Assembly (NCBI GenBank): GCA_036874045.1 | Contig: CM072335.1 | Span: forward strand, 20,653,501-20,717,500 | From: Cymodocea nodosa | Taxonomy: Eukaryota > Streptophyta > Magnoliopsida > Alismatales > Cymodoceaceae | Direction: 5' to 3' | DNA length: 64,000 nucleotides | In this document: positions 3,170-64,000 of the stretch, piece by piece | Numbering within the stretch: the stretch's first letter is position 1 | Layout of the letters: every line of letters starts with the position of its first letter | Program-made: the position numbers and the translations under genes | The notes under the pieces: generated by a model | What the model was told of the DNA's origin: nothing | Databases searched by the model: none | The model's input: only the letters and a program-made list of their open reading frames with translations

Positions 3170-5302
3170 TGTCGATTAATCTTCACCGTTCACTATAGAA
3201 CTTAGTGGAAGTAAAGATTGTGAAACTAGGGTTTTACCAAGGTAAAAATACAAAAGGTTGTTAGTAAAACTTTTATAACTCTTCGAGTTTATAAACGGAT
3301 TCAATCATTAAAATCATAAATATAAGATCTGTTACTAATAAATAACTCGAATGTTTACAATAACTATACGAGTGTTACAACTAATAAAAAGTAGAATACT
3401 TAGCATAACTATTCGTTGAAAGAAAATAACTACGAGCTAATGGAAAATTGAGAAAACTCGAAGATTTATGATAACTATTCGAGTTTTGTGAGAAATAAAG
3501 CACATAACTATACGACAAACTAGAATAGTTATTGTCAGATTTTAAGTCTTTTAAAAAAATAGTAATATTAAGTTAACTATTTGAGTTTCTCGGATGGATA
3601 TGCGAAAAAGTCGAAGACTTAAGAATAACTGTTCGACTTTCAACATGAGACATACTAAAACAATGAAATTCAACACGTGCATAATTCTAACTTAAGGAGT
3701 TCAAATATTTTCATATACTTACAAACCTTACTATCTGATACTCAGATGCATTTCGAAGAGTTACTAGATAACTTACCGAACGTTCACTTAAGGTATGCAT
3801 TAAGCTTCAACATGTGTACTTCAAGAAATAATAAATTATTCTTTTAATCCTTTAAAACATAACTGTCTGGTATATACAATATAACTTTCCGAAATAACAG
3901 AAAATTCAGAGACTTAAGAATTAAAAAGCCTGTAATTCATCGACAGTTCAAAAGTGTACTTAATTAATGTTAATTTCCTGAGATTATGTAGATTCTTCCA
4001 TTAAAGCATATAATAGTGCAATTTGAATATAATGGTTGAATTCTCATATGATAAATTGCTCCCCCTACATAAATGTAGTCTAGAGAATATATGGCGTACT
4101 TAATATTAGGTTGTCAAGCCCTAATAGATTTATCATTAAAGTCTAAGATTAGCTGACTTAAGTTGGTTGCTAAGCTTTAAATAGATTTGTCATTTAAGTT
4201 CAAAATCTGGCATACTTAAACTGGGTTGCGAAGCCCTAAATAGATTTGTCAGTAAAGTTCAAAATCTAACTTACTTAAACAAGGTTGCGAAGCCCTAAAT
4301 AGATTTGTCAGTAAAGTTCAAAATCTAGCTTACTTAAACTAGGTTGCCAAGCCCTAAATAGATTTGAGTCTCTCCTTTTTTCTTTTGTTTTAATTTAAAG
4401 ACAAAAATAAGTAGTAGATTTAACAATTTAGACTTTCTGGCTTTTATCTTATTTAGTTTACAAAAGAAAATTCATAAAGATATACCTTCAAGTAACTTAA
4501 GAGAATTCAATAATGAGTACACGAACTTAAGAAGATAAATACATTACATTATGTGTTAAGGATAGATAGTAACGAAGAAAAATAACAAAGATTATATACA
4601 TAGATTATGGCAAAATTGTTATAACACTTGTAAAAGAAATTAAGCTTGAGTGCATTGCCTCTTTATATATATATATATATATTTTTTATGTATTACCTCC
4701 CACAATATTATCTTTTTACGTGATCACAATCCCTTACATAAGGGAAAGATAACCAGTTACTTAGTGATAAGTGAGAACAGGTATCCTTTTTTTTTTATAA
4801 TTTAAATAGAATCTAAATTACTTGTAAAATGAGTTTTTAGTCAGCACATCCCAAATCAGTTGGTTCAAGTGACTAGGGTTTAAGATCCCCCAACGGACTT
4901 AATTACTCAAGTAATTGCAGATAATAAAAAAATAAAACAAGACAGTAAATTGAATAAGAGGCAACCGCAAGACTTAATTTTTCTAACAGTATGTTAATAA
5001 CTTTCCTTTAATAAACAATACATACTTTCTATGTATTTTCCAGTTAAAATCTCTATAATGGCATATACATAAGTAACAAAAATACAGTTGGCACTCATAT
5101 TGAATCAAATTAACTTTCCTTAAGTAACTTTTTCTTAAATAAATTGACTTCAATAAAAATCAAAATTTCATAAATTCTTAACTACTAGTAAATAGTAATT
5201 CAAAAATAGATATTTTGTTAGTTTATTTTTTTAATAATAAAGAAATTAAATTCTAAAACTACCTTATAACAAATCAAAATGTTATGCAATGAACAAGACA
5301 AT
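3170..5302 (-). other. Post-pol region of Copia A2, with U3-like segment
   Basis: Non-coding stretch between the A2 RNase H stop and the extra ORF. On the minus strand it contains, in order, an AT-rich spacer with a TA microsatellite at 4663-4680, a 59-bp tandem repeat (4090-4370), and a purine tract near 4070-4055 (TAGGGGGAGCAA). Directly after the tract, 4050-3665 matches the U3 end of the Gypsy-F LTR at about 54740-54350 by eye (for example the shared run AAAGCATATAATAGTGCAA). The remainder to 3170 is filled with TCGAATAGTTAT-type motifs, and AAACCCTAG lies about 100 bp before the ORF. No other coding sequence is seen. Confidence 0.55.
4090..4370. repeat. Tandem repeat, about 59 bp x 4.7
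   Basis: Five diverged copies of a unit containing GGTTGCGAAGCCCTAAATAG and GTCAGTAAAGTTCAAAATCT. The GGTTG landmark falls near 4109, 4164, 4223, 4282 and 4341, giving a period of about 59 bp. The last three copies are nearly identical. It lies within the post-pol spacer of A2, just upstream (in element orientation) of its purine tract. Confidence 0.8.
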
Positions 5303-7864: not shown

Positions 7865-9061
7865 AAGGAAGTGTAACATTTGGAAACAAAAGCAAAGATA
7901 AAATCATAGGTATGGGCAATGTTCAAATAACTCTAACTTGTGTTATTTAGAATGTACTATATGTAGAAAACCTAGGATTTAATTTGCTGAGTGTCATAAA
8001 ACTAACTCAAAATGGATATTATGTAGTGTTTGAAGATAATGTATGCAAAATAATTGATAAAAATACAGATGAAATTAAGTTTATTGCTAAAAGAAAAGGT
8101 TTTGTATGTATTTTATCTTTACCTTCTGGTGCAGTTGATTTAAATACATGTTTGCTAGCTGAAACTAGTGATGCATATCTGTGGCATAGAAGGATTGGGC
8201 AGATAAATATGAAACTGTTACATAATCTATCAAAAAAAACATTTAGTGAGAGGTTTACCAAAGATTAAATACTCAAAGGACTTTATATGTGATGCATGTG
8301 AGTTAGGTAAACTTCATAAAAACTCTTTTAAATCCAAAACTGATATTTCAAGCAAGAGAGTCTTAGAACTTATACATATGGATCTATTTGGACCAACAAG
8401 AATTATGAGTCTTGGTGGTAAACGGTATGTATTTGTTTTAGTAGATGACTTCTCTAGATACACTTGGGTATAATTTCTAGCATCTAAGACAGAAGTTTTT
8501 GAAATGTTTAAAATGTTTTGCAATTTTGTTCAAAATGAACAGAGTGTCTCTATTCAAAAACTTAGGAGTGATCATGGAACTGAATTTGATAATGATGTAA
8601 TGGATAATTATTGTAATGAGCATGGCATTGATCATAGATTTTCTTTTCCAAGAGCACCATGTCAAAATGGTGTTGTTGAGAGAAAGAATAGATCACTTCA
8701 AGAAATGGCCAGAACTATGTTGAATGAACATAAGTTACCTCAAAATCTTTGGGCTGAAGTAGTAAATACAGCTTGTTATGTTATTAACAGAAGTCATTTA
8801 AGACCTCATGTTAATAAAACTCCTTTTGAAATTATGTTTAATAGGGTTCCAAAAATTTCCTATATAAAACCATTTGGATGCAAGTGTTTTATTCTTAATA
8901 CTAAAGATAAAAGGGATAAATTTCAAGCCAAATCGGATGAAGGAATTTTTGTAGGTTACTCTACTAGAAGTAAAGCCTATAGAGTATATAACAAGACTTC
9001 TAGGACTATTGAAGAAACCCTCCATGTAAGCTTCAATGAAAATTCCTTTAGAGAATCTTAA
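7865..9061 (+). pseudogene. Copia protease tail and integrase (element B)
   Basis: Continuation of the B polyprotein. The end of the protease region (KGSVTFGNKSKDKIIGMGNV) leads to the GAG-pre-integrase zinc-binding block, with YLWHRRIGQINMKLLHNL and, after a frameshift near 8250, CDACELGK. The integrase core follows, with the three acidic residues visible in HMDLFGPTRI, RSDHGTEF and GVVERKNRSLQEMA, and ends at HVSFNENSFRES. Stops at the YTWV* position (about 8472) and elsewhere break it. Integrase inserts element cDNA into the genome; this copy cannot encode it intact, although all DDE residues survive. Confidence 0.88.
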
Positions 9062-10878
9062 TCTAAAGCTGATAATGATGATTTGATCAATCTTCCAAAA
9101 GAGTTAGGATCAATAGAGAGATTGATGATTTATCTGAGAAAATCAAAAATATGAACTTAAATAATCAAACTAATTATGAAAGTGATGTACCTTCAGATGT
9201 TGATGAGAATATTAAGGAAAATCAGAGAAATTGGCATTATTCTTCATCACATCCCATTACTCAAGTCATTAGTAATATTAATGAGGGAGTTAAAACTAGA
9301 GCTTCAATAAAATTAAATAGTATGTGTATGTTTGTTTCTATGGTGGAACCAAGGAATATACAAGAAGCATTATCTGATGAAAATTGGATAGTGGCAATGT
9401 AAGAAGAACTAAATCAATTCATCAGAAATGATGTATGGGAATTAGTCTCTCCACTAGAAAATCAGTCCATAATAGGGACAAAGTGAATCTTTAGAAACAA
9501 AACTAACGAAACTGGTCAAGTTATAAGGAATAAAGCTAGATTAGTTGCACAAGGGTATACACAGGAAGAAGGATTAGATTATGATGAAACATTTGCTCCT
9601 GTGGCTAGGTTAGAAAGTATTAGAATATTATTGGCCTATGCTTGTTATATGGATTTTAAATTATATCAAATAGATGTAAAGAGTGCATTTTTAAATGGTT
9701 TAATTAATGAAGAAGTCTATGTAAAACAACCACTTGGATTTGAAGATATTAAAAATCCTGACTTTGTGTATAAATTGAAGAAAGCCTTATAAGGTTTGAA
9801 GCAAGCACCTAGATCATGGTATGAAAGATTGTCTACTTTTTTAATAGAAAAAGGCTATATCATGGGAAAAGTGGATCATACTCTATTTATTAAGAGAGAT
9901 GGTAAAGATCAGATTGTTGTTCAAATATACGTGGATGATATAATCTTTGGAGCAACCTCTGATAAGTTGATAAAAATATTCTCTAAAGAGATGACTAATC
10001 AATTTGAAATGAGTATGATAGGAGAACTTTCATATTTTCTAGGACTTCAAATTCAACAAATGGATAAAGGTATATTTTTAAATCAGGAAAAATATGCAGA
10101 TGAAATGCTTAAGAAATTTAATTTTAATGATACAATGATTCGAGGAACTCCTATGAGTACTTCTTTAAAGTTAGATATTGATGACATAGGAAAATCTATA
10201 GATCAAAGAAAATACAGAAGTATGATTGGTTCTTTACTTTATTTGACTGCTAGTAGACCTGATATTATGTTTGCTGTGTGTATTTGTGCTAGATTTCAAT
10301 CTAATCCTAAAGAATCACACTTAATTGCAGTTAAAAGAATATTTAGAAATATACAAGGAACTAAAAATTTAAGACTGTATTATTCTAAGGATAGTTCAAT
10401 AGATCTTATAGGATATACTGATGTTGATTATGCAGGATCTAAATCTGATAAAAAGAGTACCAGTGGCACATGTCAATTATTGGGAAATAATTTGGTGTCA
10501 TCGTTTAGTAAAAAGCAAAACTATGTAGCACTTTCTACTACAGAAGCTGAATATGTTGCTGCTGCACTGTGTTACACTCAGATTCTGTAGATAAGGCAAA
10601 CTTTAGAAGATTTTGGATTATCTTATGATACAACTGAGATTTATTGTGAGAGTAGTTCTGCAATAAATCTTTTCAAAAATCCTATATTACATTCAAGAGC
10701 AAAGCATATAGAGGTTAGACATCATTTTCTAAGAGATAATGTAATTAAATGAAAAATTAAATTAGAATTTGTGTCTAGTAAAAATCAATTAGCTGATATA
10801 TTTACAAAACCTCTAGACGAAAATACATTCTGCAACATTAAATTAAATTTAGGTATTTGTAGGCTATGTGATGTGTAA
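9062..10878 (+). pseudogene. Copia reverse transcriptase-RNase H (element B)
   Basis: RT and RNase H of element B. The linker ORF (about 9151-9402) and the RT core are recognisable: [38 protein letters not shown], then a stop at 9790-9792 where the family has LeuTyrGlyLeuLys. GLKQAPRSWYERL, an intact catalytic YVDDIIFGA near 9930-9960, FEMSMIGELSYFLGLQIQ and RNase H (YTDVDYAG, ALSTTEAEYVAAA, HSRAKHIEVRHHFLRDN) follow. The frame ends at LGICRLCDV with TAA at 10876-10878. Several stops replace Trp or Gln (for example TGA at 9484-9486 in the GTKWIFRNK block). About 75-80% similar by eye to A2 and still closer to C. Confidence 0.92.
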
Positions 10879-12412
10879 AATGCTTAAACTCCACATAAAA
10901 AGATAAATATTATTGATGATGTTGTTCACCTCATAGATATTATATACTTATTATAAATATCTAAAGTAATATCTAAACTGCTGCTTAAGATACTATGTAT
11001 TTATTGTAAAATCATAGTAGTATCTTATTGATTTTAAGTAGTTTATCAATTTTAATGGTTTTTACAATTTTAAGTGGAAGTGTAAATGAAAAACATTAAA
11101 TACTTCTGACATCCTGAAATTTTGATTAAATGTTTTCTTTGAATCAAGGAAAGTGCATATGATCATGCATAAATTTGACTTAATTGATTAAACTTGTAGA
11201 ATAAGTTATATGTAACTTATCTTAACTGTAAATTAAAAGTATAAGCTTATTGAAACTAATTCATATTCTCAGTAAAATCATAGAAGTAAAAATTGTATGA
11301 GATTTGTGTTTTATTGCATCTGTATTAATGGAATACATATATACTGTGCTTAAAATGAAAAGTGCTTACAAAGTGAAAATCTTTGAGAGTTTATTAATCG
11401 GTTTGATCACGAGCCTTTTGTACTTAAGCAGATAGGTATGTAAGGATTGTTGTCCTGAAAAATGATTCTTTAAATCTGGCAAACTAAGGTCCTGATCAAA
11501 TCTGAGATTGTTGACTAAAAGCTCATTACACGAGTACATTAGAAAGCTCTTGTATGATTCAAGCTTTTCAAACTAACTTTTAAAAAAAAAAAAAGTGTTT
11601 TATTAATTACAGATATCTTTGAATCGAATATAGTTTCTACCAATATGACTATTGAGTTATTGCATCAACATTAGTACTTTTGAAAACGTTTATTTGAGAT
11701 ACATTCTTTTATTCTCTTTGAATTAATCACATTGAGTTCAAAGTTGTATTTTGATTCTGGAAATCATTTTTGATGAAGTCAGAATAATGGAAGTTTCTAA
11801 AAAGAAAATTTAAAAGTATAGTTATACTTAACATCTATTGTCACTACAAGTATAGTTTGTATTTTGATTGAATATATTTGAAGTATATTTGTAGAGGGAG
11901 GATTACTAATGTCGAAAACATATTAATATAATTTAGAATACAAATCTTGGTTAATCTAAATTAATGTCCTCTTAAAAGCTTGATGAAATAATTTAAAAAG
12001 ACAAACAAACTATTTTCAAAAGACAAGAATATTAGAATAGTTTACAATGTTCTCAAGATAATGTTAAGTTTAGCATGTGTGTTGTTTTCGGAACGTTTCA
12101 GTTGGAAGCATCCAAAAATTATTTTAAGTGTACTAACTAGACGTTATGTTAGATAAGGTAACGTGTAAAACTGCCTCTAGACAACGTTTTACTCGTTAGG
12201 TTAGTTAACTGAACGAGTTATACTTGAATATTTCAGGTACCTTGATTGAATAAACTTTATTCAATATTCTTTTAATATCTAAACCCGACTTCTCTTCCCG
12301 TTGAGTTATTCGCCTAAAACCCTATTTAAACACTTATTACACGGGCACTTAGGTTATTTGTAAACTTTGTCAAGAAAATATTTCCCACTTGTTGTTGTTA
12401 CAACCTGTGACA
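10879..12412 (+). other. Conserved post-pol spacer of element B
   Basis: Non-coding stretch between pol and the extra ORF. It aligns throughout with 62385-63950 of element C. Its 10910-11700 part also aligns, on the opposite strand, with the Gypsy-F internal region 54960-56060. The best-conserved block, 11391-11590, is about 80-85% identical to both by eye. A purine tract (AGAGGGAGGATT, 11893-11904) is followed by TGTCGAAAACA, which resembles an internal PPT plus a U3-like start. An inverted repeat ACTCGTT...AACGAGT lies at about 12190-12216, and TATTTAAA near 12325 precedes the ORF. Confidence 0.7.
12324..12331 (+). promoter_or_regulatory. Candidate TATA box upstream of extra ORF (B)
   Basis: The sequence CCTATTTAAACACTTA occurs about 85 bp before the ATG at 12413. 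The matching CCTATTTAAACACTTA occurs at about the same distance before the extra-ORF ATG of element C (near 63860). Conservation in two decayed copies suggests an internal promoter, but no transcript evidence can be read from sequence. Confidence 0.4.
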
Positions 12413-12951
12413 ATGGTCTCTAACTTCTATAAAGGTCGTGGCAGAGGAAAAGGCAAAAGCAGAGGAGATGCAAAAGGAAAAGAAATAGAAAATGATGAAG
12501 TTCCATGCACTTGGTTCAAGAAAATATTTCGAGTGGACAAAAGGTTAGCAGAAATTTATAGTGAATATTTCTTTCCTGAAGGTATACTGAATGAAGTTAG
12601 ACAAGAACTTCAAAATACTGATGCAAATATTACATACATGGGTATTTGTAGTAAATTTGATAGAGAAATTTGATGGAAATAAGAGATCTATTTGAATTTC
12701 AATGCCTCATTCAATTCTTGCCAGTAGGAACAAAATGGAAGCAATACACAAAGCTTATTGCAGCTTTTTATAGCAATCTGGTCAAGAATGGAAATTTTCT
12801 GAAAACTCAAATAAATCAACATGAGTTTATATTGTCTCCTGAATTAATTTTTGACATTTTAGGATTAAAGAATGAAGGTGTTGTTGTTACAAATAGATTT
12901 GATATGATTAGACAACTGGATGGAACATTCAGTCTTTATCAAAAATTCTAG
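12413..12951 (+). pseudogene. Extra ORF in env position of SIRE-like Copia B
   Basis: The ATG at 12413 starts MVSNFYKGRGRGKGKSRGD, a basic Gly/Arg/Lys-rich head, followed by a charged region ending at FDREI with a TGA at 12671. The next frame overlaps it (ATG at 12673) and continues MEIRDLFEFQCLIQFLPVG, then WKQYTKLIAAFYSNLV and FILSPELIFDILGLKNEG to a stop at 12951. I read this as one ORF with a -1 frameshift, about 180 residues surviving. The second part resembles in style the 'putative plant transposon protein' domain found in plant retroelement ORFs (EFYANL...I...LG layout); this is from memory, not a search. No signal peptide or transmembrane segment is visible in what remains. It is cut at the 3' side by a deletion running into the LTR end at 13059. 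Confidence 0.5.
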
Positions 12952-13058
12952 ATGTATATTCTAAAATGAGATTAATAGAAAATCTGAATGTAGAGGCAAG
13001 GTTTATTGCAAATATATTGCATGCCAATTTATTTCAGAGAGTCGGACACAATAGTGTC

Positions 13059-17474: not shown

Positions 17475-17532
17475 CGTCTAAAAGAAAACATACATGCATG
17501 GTGCATCTTTAAAGACCACCTCAAGCAAAGCA

Positions 17533-19965
17533 ATGGCCTCCAACACGCATGTCTTCATCATCATTGTCCTGGCAATGTGCCTTGTGGCCCCCATTGTCTT
17601 TGCCCGTGACAAGCAAGACGGCTACGACGACGGATATGGCTACAATGATGAAACCCCTGCGACTCCTGTGAAGAGCGGGTATGAAACTCCTTCAACCTCA
17701 CCTCCCACGGCCCCTTCAACTCCAAGCCCCAACGAAAATCCTTCAACCCCAACTCCTACAACTCCAAGTAATGGCACACCTGCAACCCCTGAAGCAGCAA
17801 CCCCCACAACGACCAATGAAACTCCTTCAACTCCAACGTCTAATGAAACCACTTCAACTTCAACCCCTACAACTCCAAGTCCTACAGCCTCTGACGAAAC
17901 ATCTACAACCACAACTTCGAGGTATCACAATTGCAATACTCAATCAACCCCAACCCCCACAACACCTACCTCTGATGAGGTAGCCACAGCCCCAAGTCCT
18001 ATGAAAAGCAGCCACGAAACTCCTACAACTCCTTCAACTACAACCCCTACGACCCCTAATCAAACTCCTTCAACCCCTACATCCTCCAATGAATCTCCAA
18101 CAACCCCAACTCCATCAGCCAACCAAATTCCCACAAGCCCAACATCTAACGAAACTCCCACAACCCCAACCTCTAACGAAACCCCCACAACCTTGGCTTC
18201 TTCAACAAATGAAACTCCTACAACACCAACCTCTAATGAAGCCCCTACCACTTCAGCTCCTTCGACTAATGAGACTCCCACAATCCCAACCTCTAACGAT
18301 ACCCCTACCACTCTAGCTCCTTCAACTAATGAGACTCCCACAATCCCAACCTCTAATGAAACCCCCACAACTCCAGCTCCTTCAACTAATGAGAATCCCA
18401 CAACCCCAGCTTCTAATGAAACCCTAACTCCTTCAACTAATGAGACTCCCACAATCTCAGCCTCTAATGAAACCCCCACAACTCCAGCTCCTTCAACTAA
18501 TAAGAATCCCACAACCCCAGCCTCTAATGAAACCCCAGCTCCTTCAACTAATGAGACTCCCACAATCCCAACTTCTAATGAAACCCCCACAACTCCAGCT
18601 CTTTCAACAAGTGAAACTCCCACAACCCCAACTTCAAATGAAACTCCTACTACTCCAGCTCCTTCAACTAAAGAAACCCTCACAACCCCAACCTCTAATG
18701 AAACCCCTGCAACCCTAGCTCCTTCAACTAATGAAACTCTCACAACCCCAGCTTCTAATGAAACCCCCACAATCCCAACCCCTTCAAATAATGAAACTCC
18801 AACAACCCAAGCTCCTTCAACTAATGAATCACCCACAACCCTAACCTCTAATGAAACCCCCACAACCCCAACTCCTTCCACAAATGAAACTCCCACAACC
18901 CCAGCTCCTTCATCCAATGAAACTCCTACAATCCAAACCTCTAATGAAACTCCCACAACCCCATCTCCTTCAACTAGTGAAACACCTGCAAGCCCAACTT
19001 CAACAACCTCCAACGAAACACCTACAACCCCAACTCCTTTAAACAATGAAACTCCTACAACCCCAACTCCATCAACCTATGAAACTCCTAGAACCGTAGC
19101 CCCTTCAACATCTGACGAAACTCCTACAACCCCAAATCCTTCAAACAATGAAACTCCTACAACCCCAACTCCTTCAAACAATGAAACTCCTTCAAACAAA
19201 GAAACTCCTGCAACCCCGACCCCTTCAACATCTGATGAAACTCCTGCAGCTCCAACTCCTTCAACTGATGAAGCTCCTACAACCCCAACCCCTACAACTT
19301 CTAATGAAACTCCAACCCCACCACCTGCAACAACTAATGAAACTCCAACTTCTACAACATCTGGTGAAACTCCTACAAATCCATCGACCCCAACTCCACC
19401 AACTCTAGCACCTACAACCCCAATGAACAGTCGCTATGAAAACCCTATGCGGAGCCACCACAATAATAGAGATATCAAAAGCCCACTTGTGAACCAAGTG
19501 TGCGGGAGGTGCCCCTACACTAGCCGTTGCCTTAACATGTTTAGCTTCCACACAGAGGCTAACGTGGCTGCCAATGTGACCGTGCTTGCAAAAATAGCCA
19601 TTCAAGATGCAATCGTAAAGGTTCAAAAGATGTCAGCACGGTGTGACAAGATCCTCGAGGGCTTCCCCACGTCCATATTTCAGAAGTGCTTTGGCCTCTG
19701 CTATCGAAAGTATCTAGGCGTGTACGCCAAGCTCAACCTACTACTTGACATGCTCAACAAGCCCGACTGCAACCCCAAATCCATCATCTTCTCCCTCAAC
19801 GCCAGCCTTTTTGAAGTGAAGGTGTGCGCTAGGGGCCTATCCGTCCTCTCCATCATGTTGAGAGGGCATGTAGAGGCTAGGGCGTTGTTTGGCGACAACA
19901 AGGACTTTAATTACAAGTGCAGGAATGCCATGTCCATTGCCAAGCTCCTCCCAGGTTATAGTTAA
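17533..19965 (+). CDS. Secreted Thr-Pro repeat protein with PMEI-like C-terminal domain
   Basis: Single-exon gene of 810 codons. I chose the ATG at 17533 because AGCAATGGC is a good plant start context and the next ~25 residues form a signal peptide (hydrophobic FIIIVLAMCLVAPIVFA); an upstream in-frame ATG at 17494 would bury it. After a short acidic Tyr/Gly/Asp stretch comes a Thr/Pro/Ser/Asn/Glu array at about residues 50-630, built on a ~20-residue unit (PSTNETPTIPTSNETPTTPA-like). The array has dozens of TP/SP dipeptides suited to Hyp O-glycosylation and many Asn-Glu-Thr sequons followed by Pro. Residues ~650-805 resemble the plant invertase/pectin methylesterase inhibitor fold: a VCGRC...C first Cys cluster, then helices, KCFGLCYRKYLGVYAKLN and later Cys. 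A cell-wall or apoplastic role is inferred; inhibition of an enzyme is not proven. No introns or breaks; higher GC than its surroundings. It is the only intact host gene in the window. Confidence 0.9.
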   Translation: MASNTHVFIIIVLAMCLVAPIVFARDKQDGYDDGYGYNDETPATPVKSGYETPSTSPPTAPSTPSPNENPSTPTPTTPSNGTPATPEAATPTTTNETPSTPTSNETTSTSTPTTPSPTASDETSTTTTSRYHNCNTQSTPTPTTPTSDEVATAPSPMKSSHETPTTPSTTTPTTPNQTPSTPTSSNESPTTPTPSANQIPTSPTSNETPTTPTSNETPTTLASSTNETPTTPTSNEAPTTSAPSTNETPTIPTSNDTPTTLAPSTNETPTIPTSNETPTTPAPSTNENPTTPASNETLTPSTNETPTISASNETPTTPAPSTNKNPTTPASNETPAPSTNETPTIPTSNETPTTPALSTSETPTTPTSNETPTTPAPSTKETLTTPTSNETPATLAPSTNETLTTPASNETPTIPTPSNNETPTTQAPSTNESPTTLTSNETPTTPTPSTNETPTTPAPSSNETPTIQTSNETPTTPSPSTSETPASPTSTTSNETPTTPTPLNNETPTTPTPSTYETPRTVAPSTSDETPTTPNPSNNETPTTPTPSNNETPSNKETPATPTPSTSDETPAAPTPSTDEAPTTPTPTTSNETPTPPPATTNETPTSTTSGETPTNPSTPTPPTLAPTTPMNSRYENPMRSHHNNRDIKSPLVNQVCGRCPYTSRCLNMFSFHTEANVAANVTVLAKIAIQDAIVKVQKMSARCDKILEGFPTSIFQKCFGLCYRKYLGVYAKLNLLLDMLNKPDCNPKSIIFSLNASLFEVKVCARGLSVLSIMLRGHVEARALFGDNKDFNYKCRNAMSIAKLLPGYS
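17690..19420 (+). repeat. Coding minisatellite (20-residue, 60-bp unit) in the PMEI-like gene
   Basis: An internal tandem array encodes the Thr-Pro region. The clearest units, of 60 bp (CCTTCAACTAATGAGACTCC-type followed by CCTCTAATGAAACCCC-type halves), lie between about 18200 and 18960; outer units are more diverged or have partial length. Because the period is a multiple of three, length changes would keep the frame. Confidence 0.85.
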
Positions 19966-21970: not shown

Positions 21971-23532
21971 TTAATAAACAATGATCATTATTTATAAGAT
22001 TATGCTAATGTAGCATGTTTAGACTTCAAAGTTTACATTTTTTATATGATTATTTATGTATTTTATATATTATAATTGTAATTATATGTGATTTAATGAA
22101 GAATGTATGATAATTATGATTTTTACGATTTTATATATTTTAAATGATTAAATAATGCATAAATTGATATATGATAATTATTATATAAAATATGCTTCAT
22201 GGAAAGATATCTTATATGATTTTATAGGAATAATTGAAGACATTGCAAATTTCATTTTTAAAGTAGAGTTGAAGAAGGAAGAAAGACGAGAATAATTAAT
22301 TTAAAAGGTTATGTGAAAAGTAGTATAGTTAAGTTTAAGTATATGAAAAACTAGAAGAGTTATTATTAATAAACTCATATAGCTATGATTTATGCACATG
22401 TGCTTTAAAAGTTATAAGTTTTCACATATTTTTCATGTGCAGCTTTGAAAAACTAGAAAAGTTATGATAACTATTCGAGTTTTATATATATATAATGGAT
22501 AACTGTTCGAGTTTTATGTATAGTAATAGATAACTGTTTGAGTTCTGTAAAAGGGCCTAATGTTAATTTTTTATTTTAATTTAAAATCAAAAAAATAAAT
22601 ATAAAAAATAATAAACTTGTATAGTTATGATTTATGCACATGTGTTTTAAAAGTTATAAGTTTTCACGTGTTTTTCATGTGAAGCTTTGAAAAACTAGAA
22701 GAGTTATGATAATTGTTCGAGTTTTATATATAGATAATGGATAACTGTTCGAGTTTTATGTATAGTAATGGATAACTATTAGAGTTCTATAAAAATGCCT
22801 CATATTAATTTTTTATTTTAATTTAAAATCAAAAAATAAATATAAAAAATAATAAACTCATATAGTTATTATTTATGCACATGTGTTTTAAAAGTTATAA
22901 GTTTTCACGTGTTTTTCATGTGTAGCTTTGAAAAACTAGAAGAGTTACGATAACTGTTTGACTTTTATATATAGATAATGGATAACAGTTCGAGTTTCAT
23001 GTATAGTAATGGATAATTGTTCAAGTTTTGTAAAAGGGTCTAATATTAATTTTTTATTTTAATTTAAAATCAAAAAAATAAATATAAAAAATAATAAACT
23101 TGTATAGTTAAGATTTATGCACATGTGTTTTAAAAGTTATAAGTTTTCTCATATTTTTTATGTGCAGCTTTGAAAAACTAGAAGAGCTATGATAACTGTT
23201 CGAGTTTTATATATATATAATGGATAACTACTCGAGTTTTATGTATAGTAATGGGTAATTGTTCAAGTTTTGTAAAAGGGTCTAATATTAATTTTTTATT
23301 TTAATTTAAAATCAAAAAAATAAATATAAAAAATAATAAACTTGTATGGTTATGATTTATGCACATGTGTTTTAAAAGTTATAAGTTTTCACATGTTTTA
23401 CATGTGTAGCTTTGAAAAACTAGAAGAGTTATGATAACTGTTCGAGTTTTATATATAGATAATGGATAACTATTCAAGTTTTATGTATAGTAATGGATAA
23501 TTGTTCGAGTTTTGTAAAAGAGCCTAATATTA

Positions 23533-23984
23533 TTTTTTTTTTAGGTGCATTTACACCTACTACCAAGCACTCACTCATGTAAGAACTCTAGAGTTAACTA
23601 TGTTTAGGCGAGAGCAGAATCAAGATGGGTGACCATTTGGAAAGTTCTCGTGCAATGCCTATGAGCATTAGTGCTAGCTCTACTCAAGCCTTACAAGTTA
23701 TAGGTGCGTGCACCACTTACTCAATTCACATACCAGCATTGCGGGTCTTACCTCAATCAGTAATATCAATCGAGTTGGTGGATGAGGCCACTTAGGGTAC
23801 CCCCAATTAGTTGAGAATCTTTGCGAGACAAAGTACGTGATACTTGGAGAAATCTATTACGTTAGGGCCTAACAATACCTCTTATAAGCTTTCACCTTCT
23901 TGGATACTCCTAATTTATACCTTTGAGTGTCCATTGAGACTCATATGTTATCACCTCTATGGATACTCCTAAAGGATAAGAAAA
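23533..23984 (+). mobile_element. 452-bp retroposed-looking insertion carrying a 5S-rRNA-like segment
   Basis: It interrupts a 242-bp array unit. The array sequence CCTAATATTA|ATTTTTTATTT is split, with a 7-bp AATATTA repeated at both borders (23526-23532 and 23985-23991). The insert begins with a run of nine T, then AGGTGCATTT, and ends GGATAAGAAAA. A 5S-like block lies near its left end. It could be a Cassandra-type TRIM LTR (these carry 5S sequence) or a 5S-derived SINE-like retroposon. The 7-bp duplication and homopolymer end favour retroposition, whereas Cassandra would give 5 bp. A palindrome GTTAGGGCCTAAC occurs at about 23863. Confidence 0.65.
23578..23662 (+). pseudogene. 5S rRNA-like sequence (not a functional 5S gene)
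   Basis: The run AAGAACTCTAGAGTTAACTA through TAGGCGAGAGCAGAA, AAGATGGGTGACCATTTGG and AAAGTTCTCGTGCAATGC follows plant 5S rRNA from about nucleotide 30 to the 3' part, including counterparts of the A box, intermediate element and C box of its internal pol III promoter. I estimate 70-75% identity. The 5' third of 5S and the flanking spacer are absent, so this is derived, not a gene copy. Confidence 0.65.
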
Positions 23985-24279
23985 AATATTAATTTTTTAT
24001 TTTAATTTAAAATCAAAAAAATAAATATAAAAAATAATAAACTTGTATAGTTATGATTTATGCACGTGTTTTAAAAGTTAGAAATTTTCACATGTTTTTC
24101 ATGTGCAGCTTTGAAAAACTAGAACAGTTATGATAACTATTCGAGTTTTATATATAGATAATGTATAACTGTTCGAGTTTTATGTATAATAATGGATAAT
24201 TGTTCGAGTTTTGTAAAAGAGCCTAATGTTAATTTTTTATTTTAAAAAATCAAAAAAATAAATATAAAAACTAATAAAC

Positions 24280-24975
24280 TTCGATTGGACCGAAGTTAAG
24301 ATTTGGTCCAACCGAAGGAAAAATAAAGAAAATAAAACACTTCGATCAAATCAAAGAAAAATAATAATAATAAAATGTTTAAAAAATCATAAACTTCGGT
24401 CAGACTGAAGTTGAGCTTCGGTCAAACCAAAAAAGAAAATAAATAAATTAAAATTTCGGTTGGATCGAAGTAAAGATACGGTCATACCGTTAAAAAAATA
24501 AAAAACTAAAAACAATTTGATCGAACTATTTTTTCATTTGTACAATCGAAATTTATTATTATTATTATTTTTTCTTAAGTCTGACTAATTGAAGTTTTTT
24601 ATTTTTTTATTTTATTCGTCTATCTCAACTTCGATCAAATCGAAGTTTTTTTATTTTTTATTTTTTCATTGGTTGACCATATCTCACTTTTGTTCAAATT
24701 GATATTTTTTATTTTTAGTATTTTTTCCTTTAGTTTGATCGAAGCTTAAATTCGGTTGGACCAATGTTTTTTATTTTTTACATTTTTTATTTTATTCGTC
24801 GGTCTAACTGTATCTCAACTTTGGTCAAACTGAAGTTTTTTTTTATTTTTTATTGTGCATTGGTCTAACCGAATCTCACCTTCGGTTAGACTGATGTTTT
24901 TTATTTTTGGTATTTTTTCCTTTAATTTGACTGAAGCTTAAATTCGATTGGACCAACATTTTTTATTTTAAATTA
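24280..24975. repeat. Foldback-like block of TTCGGTYNNACCGAA motifs
   Basis: A dense series of short imperfect palindromes, for example ACTTCGATTGGACCGAAG near 24288, ACTTCGGTCAGACTGAAG near 24392, and CTTCGATCAAATCGAAG near 24631. The left half (to about 24530) is A-rich between motifs and the right half (from about 24540) is T-rich, so the two halves are inverted relative to each other and could form one large hairpin. The right half repeats with a period of roughly 60 or 120 bp. It abuts the end of the 242-bp array. No coding content. Confidence 0.65.
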
Positions 24976-52348: not shown

Positions 52349-52835
52349 TGTTGAGTATTTTGTTTTGATGATGTGTGCTAAATGAATGTAATCATATTTA
52401 CTCAATTACTATTGTTTGTAAAAGTAAATTAAGAACATCAATTAATACAGAAAAAGTTTACTAATATAAATACTTGTCTGTAATGGATTTGAAATTATAT
52501 TAAATTAAATAACTAGCCATTAAGTTATACTAACTTTTTATTTAACTAAACATTAAGTTAACGTGTGTTTTTATTGTAAAGCATGATATGTTTTAAAGTT
52601 ACATTTTCTGTATCATGTATAGTGCACGTTAAGACAACTCGTTGAGTTAGTGCTTTATTTGTATAAAGGTCACATGAGAACTCGTTGAGTTACAAGCTTA
52701 AAGGTTAAAATAAGTCATGTGAGAACTCATTGAGTTAGTAAACAAAATGTTAAAGTGAAGAGACAAACTTGTTAACTTAGTATTATGCACGTGGTGAAAT
52801 TAAAGTTTACAAATATTATATTATATCACGTGAGT
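52349..52835 (+). repeat. 5' LTR-T of Copia C, first part
   Basis: Begins TGTTGAGTATTTTGTTTTG immediately after ATTAG of LTR-E and follows the solo LTR-T at 27747. It stops at TCACGTGAGT, where Gypsy element F is inserted. It resumes at 58441. Confidence 0.85.
52831..52835. repeat. Target duplication of Gypsy F (TGAGT), left
   Basis: TGAGT precedes the F insertion and recurs at 58441-58445 directly after it. Joining the flanks restores the LTR-T sequence (CACGTGAGTTGTACATG; compare CACATGAGTTGCACATG of the solo LTR). Confidence 0.92.
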
Positions 52836-54796
52836 TGTCTGCCTTGTTAACTTCTATTTGTAACTTAATTAATTTATCTTTATGCTTATCAGTAATTCCT
52901 TTTTAGAAGTCAACAAACCATCTTTCACACAAATTAGATATTAATTCCAATTTGTATTTTAACTGCAAGTGTACAATGTATATTGTATTTGTGTGCAAGT
53001 ACAGGTCGATCCCATAGAGAATTGAGGACGAATTTTGTACTGTTCCGTTTTTAATAATGAAATTTATATATTTAGTAAGCACTCCGTTATGTTAAAGCTA
53101 ATTCAACAAACTAATCTCGTGAAATTGAAGTAACTCAATGAAGCTATCTATCCAGTTTAATATTGCTACTTACAAATGAATTTGGTCAATCATTGGGTGT
53201 TTCCATAAATTGTAAATAACATCAATTAAGCTCTTTAATGCTAGTTAATATTAGATTTATCATTCAGCAACACTTACATTTAGATATTTCAAACAGTAAC
53301 CATTAAAATCTTTAAGTATCAGAAACGATTCAATTTCAGTAAACTGTAAAACTATTTTCTATTTTCTAAATTAAACAAACATGAAACATTTCAAACACTA
53401 ACATTAATCACGATACAAAACAAATAATACAACACTCAAATACTAACTATAAACATAGATAAGTTATTTTTGGTATTTTTGTTTTTATATGATCATGAAA
53501 ATGGGCGAAAGTTGAAATGTAAAAGTAATCTCTATCGATAGTAAAAACTTTCGTCACTACATGCGACACGATTACACCACTGAAAATCTAACCACTTACA
53601 ATTCTGTCTCCTCTCCCTATAGAATCGCGAGTCTACAATTGCAAGTTGATCTCCTCTTCAACATATTGGCATCACCCGAAACCAAGGCTAGAAGTTTTAA
53701 AATCTCCTGCGATATGAGTCAGTGCTTGGTGAAAATGATTTCCCTTCTCGCGACGCGATCACTCCTCACAGTGGTTGTTAGGCACCGTGTTTGGCTCAAA
53801 ATCGACCTAATATCAAGAAAGTGTCCTCACAGACCTCCGATGGTTAGTGATTATGGTGGTGGTGGTGATGGTAGTGTGGAACTTCAGGGAACTTCTATCG
53901 CTGCTTGTAGTTAGCGCGGTCCTCCTCCTCTACACACACACTAGCCACATAGCTTCGTTTTTTTTTCTCCTTGTCTTTTATATTTCTTAGTAGTAACTAC
54001 TTCTACTTCGATGATCTGTTGGATTTCCTTCGTTCAAATCAACGATGGTGATTTCTTCTTCCTTCCACGAGCAATTTCCTACGTGATACGTGCAATCGTG
54101 GTTTTCCTTTGAATGTCTTGTTTCTGTAACCGCTACAATGGCATATTAGAAAATAAATGGTCCGTGGAGTTATAGATAACTCAACGGACTTACTTCGTTG
54201 ATTTAACTATAAAACACGTGCAATAAAGAAATAAGCCACTAACATAACATGTTACCTTAGTATGTATTCATGTAACTCAACACGTACAGTTATGCTAACT
54301 TAACGAGTTAAACATGTGCATCTCACATGATGTACTAAAGCATTTAAATTCAACACGTGCATAATTCTATCTTAACAAGTCCAAATATTTCGGACACTTA
54401 CGAACCTAACTATCCGATGCTCAGATGCATTTCGGATAGTTACAGATAACCTTCCAAAAATCCACTTAAGTCATACATTGTAGTTTCAACACTTGTAATC
54501 CAGGAAATAATAAAATATTCTTTAAGCATTTAAAACATAACTGTCCAGTACATTAAACATAACTCTCCGAAATAATAGAAAATTCGGATACTTAAGAATT
54601 TCACAGCCTGCAATTTACCGACAGTTCAGAAATGTACTAAATTAACATTAATTCCCTGGAATTATGCAGATTCTTTCATTAAAGCATATAATAGTGCAAT
54701 TATAACATAATGACTTAATTCTCATACGATAAGCTAAATATTATGTAATTAATCATCATTTAACCGTTAATATTATGCACTTTTTCATTCTAAACA
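52836..54796 (-). repeat. 3' LTR of Gypsy F
   Basis: In element orientation it starts TGTTTAGAATGAAAAAGTGC at 54796, directly after a purine tract. The first ~520 bp match the right LTR at 58440-57936. Near its other end it has CTGCAAGTGTACAATG and AAGTACAGGTCGATCCCAT, the Gypsy-type LTR 3' signature also seen at 43860. It contains a TTTCGGATAGTTA palindrome (54430-54459) like those of the Copia LTRs. The open frame at 53561-53914 has no recognisable domain; a short GGTGGTGGTGATGG run lies within it. Confidence 0.75.
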
Positions 54797-54811
54797 CCTT
54801 CCCCCATACTT
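54797..54811 (-). other. Polypurine tract of Gypsy F
   Basis: The reverse complement reads AAGTATGGGGGAAGG and is preceded by GGGACTAGCAAAATTT, a context typical of the 3' PPT in plant Gypsy elements. The LTR starts immediately after. Confidence 0.8.
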
Positions 54812-56425
54812 AAATTTTGCTAGTCCCATAGCAAACTAAGATCTAACTAATTGGTCTTTCTAAAGTGCTAGATTTAATTCTTCATTTCACTCTTCTTCAG
54901 AATAATAAATAAGATTACTATATAGATATTCTGTATGCTTCAGTAATCTATTTTAACTTTGTTTTCTCCTCTTCAACCTGCAAATATATTTAGAATATAT
55001 GTAAATTACATACAAAATATATCAACATCACATAGGTGTTAATTATATTATCATTTTTTCTTTTCAACATCTGTCATCCTGAATTTTCCAATATGATTTC
55101 CAAAATAAATTTCAAGTACATATAAATCAAAGCACAATCCAATTCAATATGATTAAGACAAGTAGAATAAAGAATTGTATCTCAAATAAACAACTTCAAA
55201 AGTCTATTCTAGATTCATACTTCAGCAATTTTAGATAACAGAACATATACTCAATTCAGAAGATATCTGTATTTCACAAAACACTTGTATCTTTTTAGAA
55301 CAGTATATGCATATTTGTACCTTAAAAGTTAATTTGACAAGCTTGAATCATACAAGAACTTTCTAGTGTACCCATGTATCGAGCTTTCAGTCAACAATCC
55401 TAGATCTGATTAGGATCTTAGGTTGCTAGATTTAAAGTCATTTTCAAGTCAACAATCCTTACATACCTATCTACTCAAGTACAAAAGGCTCGTGATCAAA
55501 CAAGTCAATAAACTCTGAAAGTTTTTTTCTTTTTTTCTTTTTTTTCTTTTTTTTCAACACAGTATATATACGTATTTCATTAATACAGATGTAATAAAAA
55601 ACAAATCTCGTATAATCCTGCTTTTATTATGTACTGAAAATATGAATCCATCTCAATAAGCTCATACTTTTTCTATAGTTTAATAAGATCTACACATAAA
55701 TCATTCTACAAGTTTAATCAATCAAATTAAATGTATCTTTGATCATATGTATTTCATTTAATCTAAAAATCAGCATTTCAGCTCTTTCAAGATTTCAGAT
55801 AATTTACTGAGTTTCAGTTAAACATTCTGATTTCTTTTTAAAATCGTGAAACTATTAAACTCATAAATTTCAGCAAAAACATAAGATACTATATCTAGAT
55901 TTGTATAAGGAGTAAAATTTGTAGAATCTTATATAAGATTCTAAATATAACATTCAAGCAGTTACAGTTCTTAAAAAAAAAAATTACAATCTCAATTATC
56001 AATTTCCACAAAACTTTGCAGTACCATTTTAATTCCTTTAATTAACAAACTTACATGGCTATTACTTTAATTACCTCCCCCCCATACCTATTTTTTTTGC
56101 ATTGTCCTCAATGTAAAAGATTTGACAATAAATACAGTAATTGTAACAAGCATGAATATTGTTTCATTGACTTAGCATTTAACTCAATGAACTTAATTCG
56201 TTGAGTTAATAAATAACTCCACGAATTGAGTTTAAATCTAAATTCAGGATAAGTAATTAATTACATACCTTGTTTCATTTGTATCTTCTTCTGTATATTC
56301 TGATTTTTGATTTTGAAAAACTTTTCATTCACAAATAACATTTAATAGATATTGATAAATCAGTGTCTTGTATGGAACCTAGGCCCCTATGCCTTTGGTG
56401 GCTCACAAGCAAGCTAGTTGGTTTC
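54812..56425 (-). other. Internal spacer of Gypsy F homologous to Copia post-pol region
   Basis: Non-coding. On the minus strand, 55521-55330 matches 11391-11590 of Copia B and 62858-63055 of Copia C at about 80-85% by eye (shared runs such as GAGCCTTTTGTACTT, AGATAGGTATGTAAGGATTG and AAAGTTCTTGTATGATTCAA). Similarity extends, more weakly, from about 56060 to 54960. A poly-pyrimidine run at 55525-55553 interrupts it. At 56110-56070 is TGAGGACAATG...TATGGGGGGGAGG, an internal purine tract of the kind that precedes the env-like gene in Athila elements. Confidence 0.7.
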
Positions 56426-56914
56426 CTAGAATAGATACCAACAAACTAGATTGATATTTTTGTTTTTCTTTTTCTTTTTAATCGTTTGATGTGTTGGATA
56501 ATATTTTTCTAGAAAAACAAAGCAAAATTCAGTCCACGTAGAAATTGAATCAAGCGACAAAGTATATAACCATCTCTTAGCTGTGTCTTTTAAAGCAAAA
56601 GGGATATATCTAAGTTTAATAGCATCTATACTCATATTCGGCATTTTCATCATTTGACAAACTTCGTTAAATTCTCTAAGGAAATAATAGGCATCTTCTC
56701 TTTCTAATCCATGAAAATGTGGCAATTGATTGATATAATTAGACTTCAGTTCAAACCTATCTCCCTCAAAGTTTGGCAATCGAATACATGAAGGTTCATC
56801 AACTAATTCAGGATATAGAATTTCCCCTAATGGTTTTTCTACTAGAGCAACCATATCTTCGTTCTCTTTTAAAGAAAGGTTTGCTACACCCCTAAGGATT
56901 TCGTTAAAGTCCAA
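56426..56914 (-). pseudogene. Ty3/gypsy gag N-terminal part (element F)
   Basis: An open frame from the ATG at 56914 encodes ~150 residues of Retrotrans_gag type: CIRLPNFEGDRFELKSNYI, QLPHFHGLEREDAYYFLREF, MSIDAIKLRYIPFALKDTAK and RWLYTLSLDSISTWTEFCF, then FLEKYYPTHQT. These are Athila/Tat-lineage gag features. The frame then enters a Lys-rich run and stops at 56426; the zinc knuckle and all of pol are missing. Gag would form the element's particles. Confidence 0.8.
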
Positions 56915-57935
56915 TTCAGAAAATGTTTCAGTACACCTCTATGTTGAATACTCCTAGCTAGGTGTTCTTACTAATCGTTTAGTGTTAGGAGAACGAGTCA
57001 ATGTGCTCATAAACTCTTAACATATAGTAAAATAGTAGAAGATTAATTACATACCAGTCCGAAGCTTTCTATTCAGTAAATAGTTGTTACGAATGAAGTT
57101 GAATCAGCTGCTTCTCCTTCCAGTTCCCCAATGAATTTTCTTTTCTCTCAAAAGTGCTGGTAACTAGAAAATAACATTTTGTTCTATATTTATAATGCAC
57201 GTCCATAAAGCAAATAAATCTCGTTGCAAGAACGTGTCTTGTGATGTGTAGTGTGGTTCCTATTTTTCTAGGTACGTATGCCACTTCAAATTTCAAATTT
57301 CAGTAACCGCTAAACCCACGAAGTTTCGTTCGTGGCTAAAAGAATAACTGTTTAACTTAATCCACGAACTAACCTCGTTGAGTTACAGATAACTCAACGG
57401 AATAGCTTCGGTTACTACTGCTAACTCCACGGACTAACTTCATTGAGTTACAGATAACTCAATGGAGTGACCTTATATTATATTATTGACCTCGTGGAGT
57501 TAAGGTTAACTCAACGGACTTACTTCATTGAGTTAACACTTAGCAACCTCTAAATTTACTCCTCATAAATACTTTTCTACTCTCCTGCATTTTTCCAACT
57601 TAAATAAAGTTAAATACATGTCATTAATGTAGCATTTTAATTAAAACTCATTTAAATCTGAACATTATATAAATATTTAACTTGCAGTTCATTTCATGTT
57701 ATGCAGAATTTATATTTTACTTTGCAACATGTAGATATTTTCAAGCATTAATCAATTATCTTTCATTTAATCCTGTCATTCAGCAAATTGTAAATCTTTT
57801 AAACAATCTTGCATAATGTTCCACAAATTATATAATATTCAATATAGTTCATCCATTTCATCATTCTAAAACACGAATGAAAAATATATCTGAAAAACAT
57901 ATATTCATTAATATGAATAATTTACATTACAACTT
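56915..57935 (-). other. Leader/5' LTR-derived region of Gypsy F, unresolved
   Basis: Between the F gag and the recognisable 5' LTR. It contains many AACTCAACGGACTTACTTCA-type motifs (57360-57535), like those in the F 3' LTR at 54180-54220, so part of it is probably diverged or rearranged LTR. No PBS could be identified, and the boundary between LTR and leader is not visible. Confidence 0.45.
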
Positions 57936-58440
57936 AATGCTAACTTAACGAGTTAAATATGTGCATCTCACGTGATATACTAAAATATTTAAATTCAACA
58001 CGTGCATAATTCTATCTTAACAAGTTCAAATATTTCGAACACTTATGAACCTAACTATCCGATGCTCAAATACATTTTGGATAGTTATAGATAACCTTTT
58101 GAAAATCCACTTAAGTCATGCATTGTAGTTTCAACACGTGTAATCCAGGAAATAATAAAATATTCTTTAAGCATTTAAAACATAACTGTCCAGTACATTA
58201 AACATAACTCTCCGAAATAACAGAAAATTCAGATATTTAAGAATTTCACAACCTACAATTTACCGATAGTTTAGAAATGTACTAAATTAACATTAATTCC
58301 CTGGAATTATGCAGATTCTTTCATTAAAGCATATAATAGTGCAATTATAACATAATGGCTTAATTCTCATATGTTAACTAAATATTATGTAATTAACTAT
58401 CATTTAATCGTTAATATTATGCACTTTTTCATTCTAAACA
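57936..58440 (-). repeat. 5' LTR of Gypsy F, recognisable part
   Basis: Matches 54275-54796 of the 3' LTR closely (about 90% by eye), ending TTCTAAACA at 58440, directly before the TGAGT duplication. Similarity fades left of 57936. Confidence 0.8.
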
Positions 58441-59775: not shown

Positions 59776-59786
59776 TGGTATCAGAG
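59776..59786 (+). other. Primer binding site (Copia C)
   Basis: TGGTATCAGAG, an initiator-Met tRNA type primer site two bases after the LTR. It shows that LTR-T is the LTR of the SIRE-like elements B and C. Confidence 0.88.
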
Positions 59787-59973
59787 TAGGTTAATAATCT
59801 TTGATATAAAATTGATACCAACTTAATTAATATCAGAGCTTATTCTATCTTCCTTATTTTTAAACAGAAATTAATACCTGAGCATACATTTAACTTTGTT
59901 GATTTTAGGCTCAAGTTGTTTTCAAAAGTTTTAAACTATTTAAAATCTTATAAGTTAAAAAATCTAAGGTAAT

Positions 59974-62384: not shown

Positions 62385-63950
62385 AATAAACATTATTGAT
62401 GATGTTGTTTACCTCATAGATATTATATACTTATTATAAATATCTAAGTAATATTTAAATTGCTACATAAGATACTATGTATTTATGATAAAATTATAGT
62501 AGTATCTTATTGATTTTACTTATTTTTCTAAATTTAATGGTTTTTCAAAATTTTAAATAGAAATGTCAATGAAAAACATTAAATTCCTGAAAGTTTGATT
62601 AAGTGTTTTCTTTGGATTAATGAAAGTGCATATGATCAAGAATGAGTTTGACTTGATTGATTAAACTTGTAGAATAATTTATATGTAAATTATATTAAGC
62701 TACTGATCAAAAGTATGAACTTATTGAAATTGATTTATATTTTCAGTAAAATCATGAAGTAAAAATTGTATGAGATTTGTACTTTATTGCATCTATATTA
62801 ATGAAATACATATATACTGTACTTAAAATAAAAAGTGATTACAAAGTAAAAATCTTAGAGAGTTTATTGATTAGTTTGATCATGAACCTCTTATACTTGA
62901 GTAGATAGGTATGTAAGGATTGTTATCCTCAAAAGGGATTCTTTAAATCTGGTAACCTAAGGTCCTAATCAGACCTTAGATTGTTGATTGAAAGCTCGTT
63001 ACACGGGTACATTAGAAAGTTCTTGTATGATTCATGCTTTTCAAACTTACTTTTAAAGAAAATTATCAATATTTACTATTTTGAAAAAATAAAAGTTTTA
63101 TTAAATACAGATATCTTTGAATCAAATATAGTTTCTACCAATATGATTGTTGATTTGTTGAATTTAAACTAGTACTTTTGAAAATGTTTATTTGAGATAC
63201 ATTTCTTTATTCTCCTTGTGTTAATCATATTAAGTTTAAAGTTATGTTTTGATTCATATACAGTTGGAGTTGATTCTAGAAATCATTCTTGATGAATTCA
63301 GGATAACAGAAATTTCTGAAAAAAAAAATTAAAGTATAGTTATAATTAACACTTATTTTATACAGTATATTTTATATGTTATTGAATATATTTGAAGTAT
63401 ATTTGTAAGGGGAGGAATTACAATGTCCAAAACAGATTAATATCATTTAGAAGATAAACCTTAGTTAATATGAGTTTAGTCCTCTTAAGATCTTGATGAA
63501 ACAATTTAATAGACAAATAAACTATTTTAGGTTCATAAGAAGAATATTAGAATAGTTTACAATGTTCTTAAGATAATATTTTATATGAGTTACTTATAGC
63601 TTGTAAGTTGTTTTCAAAAGCTTTCAATTGAAAACATCCAAAACCTATTTTTTAGTTAAAGTATACTAATTAGACATTATGTTTTGTAAGATAATGTGTA
63701 AAACTACCTCTAGACAGTATTTTACTCGTTAGGTTAGGTAACTCAACGAGTTATGCCTAAATTTTTTGAGTACCTCGATTGAATAAAGTTTATTTAGTAT
63801 TAATTTAAAACTTAAACCCGACTAAAAAACTTGTTTAGTTATTGCTATAGAAATCCTATTTAAACACTTATAACATGAGAACTTAGGTTATCTCGTAATA
63901 TCTTTCTTAAAATCTTTACTATTTGTTTGTTCCTATAACCACCTACGATG
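62385..63950 (+). other. Conserved post-pol spacer of element C
   Basis: Aligns with 10879-12412 of element B. It includes the 62858-63055 block shared with Gypsy F. A hairpin CTAAGGTC...GACCTTAG lies at about 62958-62980, and a purine tract AAGGGGAGGAATT at about 63408-63420 is followed by TGTCCAAAACAG. An ACTCGTT...AACGAGT inverted repeat lies near 63723-63750 and TATTTAAACACTTA near 63858. The short frame at 62981 is not supported as a gene. Confidence 0.7.
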
Positions 63951-64000
63951 ATGTATTCAAAGTTCTACAAAAGATGTGGCAAAGGAAAAGGAAGAGACAT
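63951..64000 (+). pseudogene. Start of extra ORF in env position (element C)
   Basis: ATG at 63951, MYSKFYKRCGKGKGRD, to the window end. It corresponds residue by residue to the ORF at 12413 of element B (MVSNFYKGRGRGKGK). Whether this copy is intact lies outside the window. Confidence 0.5.

Follow-up and report, generated by a model that had tools for sequence, protein, structure and literature searches.

The elements considered here are closest to two described systems, the SIRE elements or Sireviruses of the Copia superfamily and the Athila elements of the Gypsy superfamily. Excerpts of two papers credit Sireviruses with env-like genes, more than one PPT and non-coding motifs that are conserved, and depict the extra ORFs of SIRE elements as very varied (PMC2829016; PMC6317226), and an excerpt of the former adds that Athila4 and Calypso possess an extra PPT (PMC2829016). 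That ORFs may be added downstream of pol, ahead of the 3' LTR, is already known from parts of two further reports (PMC7264820; PMC11963269), and one survey, as far as the excerpt goes, removed elements with domains in unexpected order (PMC6317226). The LTR superfamilies are usually treated as separate, their non-coding parts diverging beyond recognition. The window analysed here, a whole stretch of 64,000 nucleotides from Cymodocea nodosa (C1:20653501-20717500; genome of 374.6 Mb in 28 contigs), is AT-rich (GC 0.308) and contains Copia elements A, B and C and a Gypsy element, F; a non-coding block is shared by B, C and F. The window also holds a tandem repeat at 22367-24281 (unit ~242 bp, ~91% alike) and, at 17494-19965, an 823-aa ORF with an internal repeat (~17956-19427) and a terminal PMEI match under the cut-off.

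A non-coding block in Gypsy element F and Copia elements B and C

Element F is a whole Gypsy insertion on the minus strand (52836..58440), with TGTTTAG...CAGACA ends and the TSD ACTCA on both sides, lying inside the 5' LTR of Copia C, whose LTR flanks it at 52351-52837 and from 58438. Read in its own direction, F comprises a 5' LTR remnant of the first ~500 bp (57937..58440; 93.9% identical to 54292-54796), a leader or "tail" (57062..57932) with a TATA-like box, a repeated AACTCAACGA motif and a splice donor just 3' of the leader, a gag (capsid) ORF (56426..56953; PF03732, 5.2e-06), an internal PPT-like tract (56074..56087) for which a similar stretch occurs in a further family, H, the shared block (54981..55990), a terminal PPT (54797..54809) and a 3' LTR of ~1.96 kb (52836..54796), all on the minus strand. 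A promoter may lie inside the leader. The block was delimited by self-comparison, local alignment and divergence along its length, and within it lies a conserved core (55325..55520) that has evolved more slowly than its flanks between families. Relative to family copies, F has a gap, a deletion that shortened its gag ORF and removed the F-box; the remaining gag is 87.9% identical in amino acids to the family gag. This gag had been considered a possible separate insertion, but the ACTCA TSD of F and the presence of gag in 11/16 family loci make it part of F.

In Copia C the block lies on the plus strand between pol and an env-like ORF (62425..63405; core at 62855..63053); the start of the env-like ORF (63951..64000, plus strand), which runs past the window end, is 57.6% identical in amino acids to that of B, and the primer-binding site (PBS; 59776..59790, plus strand) is of the TGGTATCAGAG type, which we take to be Met-type. 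Copia B, on the same strand, carries the block at 11018..11756, the core at 11382..11580 and an interrupted env-like region at 12413..13052, and its INT-RT order is that of Copia (SH3-like and weak rve matches at 8504-9061, RVT_2 at 9796-10590). The 3' LTR junction, where a terminal AGGGGGAG-AT/TG junction would be expected, is missing or cut short in B and C. Part of the env-like region of B (12676-12888) is 41% identical over 71 aa to the env-like ORF of the Gypsy family.

The original prediction held that the spacers of F, B and C are homologous, and this is borne out by ~1 kb of non-coding DNA at 72-75% identity, far above shuffled sequence. Self-comparison of the window aligned B 11018-11756 with F 55891-55125 (73.1% over 785 bp) and C 62448-63405 with F 55951-54981 (74.7% over 997 bp). 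Local alignment of F with B gave 698/965 identities (72.3%; score 549, the highest of 200 dinucleotide shuffles being 41), and of F with C 783/1045 (74.9%; score 732 vs a maximum of 45 in 200 such shuffles), identities that lie well over 60%. The homology of the block stands at z>160 over shuffles, and AT-rich chance is ruled out by these scores as the source of the similarity. Across the core (F 55520-55325, C 62855-63053, B 11382-11580), Gypsy-Copia identity reaches 85-90% in most 60-column windows; Rfam gave no match up to E 1 over 54700-57000. As had been proposed, the carriers are Copia and Gypsy elements, and a common pol ancestor cannot account for the homology of the block. The further proposal that the module ends at a purine tract in all three elements, and was transferred as a spacer-PPT unit, does not fit if a PPT is meant: the block of B and C is a pol-env linker, that of F stops ~170 bp before its PPT, and the terminal PPT stretch of F resembles that of family H, in which no core was found.

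The genome was searched with a 192-bp core query, for which the best 40 of 3841 first-look candidates were scored (F itself and 39 places at 94-95%), and with a 958-bp query from C, for which the best 40 of 6155 were scored (C itself and 39 places at 90-91%), and neither set amounts to a copy number. Sixteen of the 39 F-type places were fetched without regard to splicing form. When the flanks were classified, many unlinked loci of both superfamilies proved to carry the block: in Copia it separates pol from env, and in Gypsy it follows the F-box and precedes the 3' LTR. Copia pol lies directly upstream in 8/8 Copia loci (L028-L035, L028 being C; seven called by protein match, L033 by DNA match to the end of C pol), and 3' of pol an env-like ORF of the B type is present in 6/8, a Gypsy-type match in L031 and none in L032. 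Among the Gypsy loci, F-box sequence is upstream of the block in 15/16 (not L019; fragments in L013 and L014) and an F-type LTR downstream in 15/16 (not L014); Gypsy pol or env occurs in 8/16 (L010, L011, L012, L014, L017, L018, L022 and L025), with a more distant env-like match in L015. Copia coding matches lie upstream on the same strand in L016, L019, L020, L023 and weakly L025, and reversed in L013 and L021; L016, L020 and L023 were traced, and there the Copia match marks a breakpoint or is found past a nested insertion. In L016 a Copia pol-block-env run is followed by Gypsy gag and F-box sequence, and L023:1149-2953 is a reversed F-type solo LTR within a Copia copy, with flanking matches that overlap by 6 bp. 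Such Copia sequence upstream of several Gypsy loci, the mixed run of L016 and the nesting of F in C would speak for a local artefact, that is, a nested insertion or a misassigned element in the window. However, this explanation is extremely improbable, as misassembly or artefact at this one place is refuted by the same contexts at many unlinked loci and by the TSD that F has of its own.

Gene order and splicing in the Gypsy family

The family of F has the order LTR-PRO-RT-RH-INT-env-leader-gag(capsid)-F-box-block-LTR. One copy, assembled from L026 and L022, is complete at both ends, with 96.5% identity between its LTRs (1861 and 1839 bp), the TSD GAGCT and, in this one copy, the PBS TGGCGCCATTGCCGGGGA of the TGGCGCC type, for which the tRNA assignment is our assumption. 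Protease (matches under the cut-off), RT, RNase H, integrase, leader, gag (PF03732, 7.2e-19), F-box ORF (PF00646, 3.6e-10), block, PPT and LTR follow one another in it; env-like sequence, lacking here, lies between integrase and leader in other copies, and the putative env-like ORF that follows INT in the family matches PF20167 at 4.3e-05, under the cut-off. The description of F as Athila-like agrees with the order of its pol domains, the type of PBS, the additional internal PPT and the putative env-like ORF, but not with its gag: no capsid gag was found between LTR and protease in L026+L022 and L010, the two loci in which the leader was followed (in L010 the match starts ~100 bp after the LTR end). 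A zinc-knuckle-like CCHC stretch between LTR and protease was read by eye. Six upstream stretches were fetched: L045 continues the leader-protease run and L046 begins inside it, and L047 and L048, with Copia or env-like sequence upstream, and L049, with pol reversed, are uninformative on a 5' gag. At L044:1143-2601, upstream of L012, a gag copy is closely followed by an LTR-like stretch, likewise uninformative on this point.

In gag-bearing copies, gag lies in an intron, the leader ending at ACTG/GTATGT and the F-box exon starting at TATACAG/AATCACA, with minor variants. The leader and F-box exons are joined exactly in L020, and in L025 with one letter different, so that the spliced form is present in 2 of 16 loci picked regardless of splicing. 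At all of the best 40 places scored, a 131-bp junction query aligns without the intron; these include L020 and L025, the other 38 being known from alignment only. The 40 are a lower bound on spliced copies and yield no fraction, and descent from few events may apply. From this arrangement we infer that unspliced RNA would give rise to Gag and spliced RNA to the F-box protein, both by way of a putative promoter in the leader.

The F-box ORF shows the mark of purifying selection, with a dN/dS of 0.32-0.47 vs L022 and 0.44 among the other 11 copies (L013, L014, L019 and L020 set aside); the corresponding values are 0.26-0.38 vs L022 and 0.35 among nine others for gag (L016 set aside) and 0.28-0.30 for integrase (L022 and two others), all of these figures including post-insertion decay. 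The integrase of L022 has a dS of ~0.15 to two copies, vs 0.22-0.32 for gag and F-box to theirs, and the lower integrase value suggests recombination within the Gypsy family. A search with the F-box protein against 5.8 billion proteins returned 1352 candidates, none at E 0.001, and PDB sequences gave no match up to E 1; an FBA domain, at E 7.7, is not claimed.

Evolution of the core and direction of a probable transfer

Ten Copia copies, with C itself represented by L028, and 13 of the 17 F-family copies entered the tree and the divergence estimates; of the F family, L014, L019, L020 and the Gypsy copy in L016 were set aside. Gypsy and Copia copies fall on opposite sides of one branch (100/100 for the block, 100/99 for the core). 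Between the families the branches total 0.30 changes/site for the block as a whole and 0.057 for its core, roughly a fivefold difference, with end branches of similar length (medians 0.034 and 0.025). Net divergence, at 0.03-0.07 across the core, is ~0.07-0.33 elsewhere in the block and comes near background by F 54970; within Copia, in decaying copies, core variation equals flank variation. Recent conversion is disfavoured because it would break the family clades, and constraint on the core fits better. Given the homology, the many loci in both families, the separate clades and the slow core, an exchange of the block between the superfamilies is well supported. The core may fold into a hairpin of 13 pairs, with 99% of cells paired and one pair that is AU in some copies and GC in others; two of five measures are not above shuffles (415/500 for pairs in which both sides differ, 499/500 for additional pair types), and folding of single cores is weak or unexceptional (z -0.8 to -1.5). 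Conservation of the hairpin in Copia A is not claimed, as folds differ among copies.

We hold with moderate confidence that the block moved between an Athila-like Gypsy and a SIRE-like Copia element, most likely from Copia to Gypsy by template switching, and was kept for a cis-acting role of its core. This model proposes that the pol-env linker of Copia B/C would have been copied into the Gypsy 3' untranslated region, possibly by reverse-transcriptase template switching between co-packaged RNAs, to land between the internal PPT of the Gypsy element and its own terminal PPT, and would later have been inherited within each lineage. Its retention could reflect selection on the ~200-bp core for a cis-acting role in the element RNA; as the Gypsy family carries an intron holding its gag, one guess is that the core aids nuclear exit or packaging of intron-containing genomic RNA. 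It is unlikely, if conceivable, that the Gypsy lineage has been rebuilt along retrovirus-like lines, with a 3' gag unit possessing its own promoter and intron, a captured F-box protein that is made from spliced RNA and maintained by selection, and a Copia-derived cis-acting export or packaging RNA.

As to direction, Copia to Gypsy appears the likelier, on three points of which none is strong: synonymous divergence between A and B/C exceeds that of the block, A has a weak core-like match, and H gave no match to the core. Copia A is an outgroup to B/C, with an RT dS of 0.78-1.06 vs 0.06-0.24 among B/C copies, and this 0.78-1.06 is greater than the divergence of the block between B/C and Gypsy. 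Among outside sequences the core profile scores highest against the A linker, a weak match of 7.7 bits (E 0.34 over all sequence in the search, E 0.0017 in its own 1.4-kb region). In eight A-family copies, which are non-independent, the best core match is reached by no shuffle of 100 in five copies and by 1-4 of 100 in three; L038 was set aside in this test because it nearly duplicates L037. Overall homology of the A linker to the block is not significant, only the core-profile signal being left. Family H, found in L020:3436-4640 (best 40 places scored at 87-100%, 38 of them spanning nearly all 1205 bp), has the internal-PPT and terminal-PPT stretches in common with F, and no match to the core was found between them. 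The F block and the H interior gave one 31-bp alignment in an A-rich tract (42 vs a maximum of 39 in 200 shuffles), and the score of the C linker against H was reached by 2/200 shuffles. No pol was found within 3 kb upstream of one H copy by which H could be classed as Gypsy, and this weakens the argument on direction drawn from H. The opposite direction, by which B/C would have captured the Gypsy 3' region into their pol-env linker and A the adjoining PPT-U3 stretch, draws on the contiguity in Gypsy of the stretches common with Copia (block, U3 start and U3 middle), which are scattered in Copia; it is nevertheless rather unlikely, as the outgroup A has its core-like match, weak as this is, and H possesses the flanking stretches of F yet gave no core match.

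Further stretches are common to these families. A and H have a ~107-bp block in common (A 4659..4765, minus strand; 72-78%), its score reached by 0/300 shuffles in each of six A-family copies. The segment of A that follows pol (3649..4054, minus strand) is related to the U3 of F at 81-82%; the A linker shares up to ~400 bp with this U3 (74-82%), and at least 270 bp in 8/8 A-family loci. Moreover, F-type and B/C-type LTRs have 151 bp in common at 77%. The F-type stretch in A was rejected as the LTR of A, since other A-family copies continue past it and L040 has an env-like match beyond. More than one exchange between the families is indicated, because the F U3 resembles both the A linker and a stretch of the B/C LTR, and linkers in this genome look mosaic. 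The motif AACTCAACGA, with one mismatch allowed, occurs at 58 places in the window vs 4 expected, and clusters in the leader of F, the linker of C and the LTRs of both superfamilies. Mosaic linkers, the 107-bp block of A and H and a motif common to several families could also be read as the traces of some third origin, in host DNA or in another element, from which the block was inserted into both families. However, the best 40 matches per search, a weak test, include no third carrier with other flanks, and this origin seems improbable beside a transfer from Copia to Gypsy.

Comparison with known elements

A slow core in two superfamilies implies that cis-acting parts may be exchangeable, and it singles out a short element with a testable function; annotation may discard an arrangement such as an intron-borne, displaced gag next to a selected F-box ORF. 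Among the matches listed, judged by title and the opening of the abstract, papers on F-box genes and Athila included and subscription journals mostly outside the scope, there was no precedent for the block, for a gag displaced in this way or for a family of this kind with an F-box gene. Like the SIRE elements and Sireviruses of the excerpts, B and C have INT before RT, a Met-type PBS and an env-like ORF 3' of pol (PMC2829016; PMC6317226), and the AGGGGGAG tract in the A linker and the repeated motifs in LTRs and near env are likewise in keeping with that lineage as described there. However, the motifs in those descriptions are conserved within Sireviruses, whereas the linker block here is common with Gypsy. 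As in the plant LTR elements with additional ORFs presented in part of another report (PMC7264820), the F family has, in many copies, an extra ORF in sense orientation downstream of pol and ahead of the 3' LTR, but its F-box ORF and displaced gag are not described in that part. With Athila the F family has in common the PRO-RT-RH-INT order, the TGGCGCC PBS, a putative env-like ORF and the extra internal PPT; unlike Athila, it carries its capsid gag 3' of env inside an intron, followed by an F-box ORF, and a 3' region that contains the block shared with Copia.
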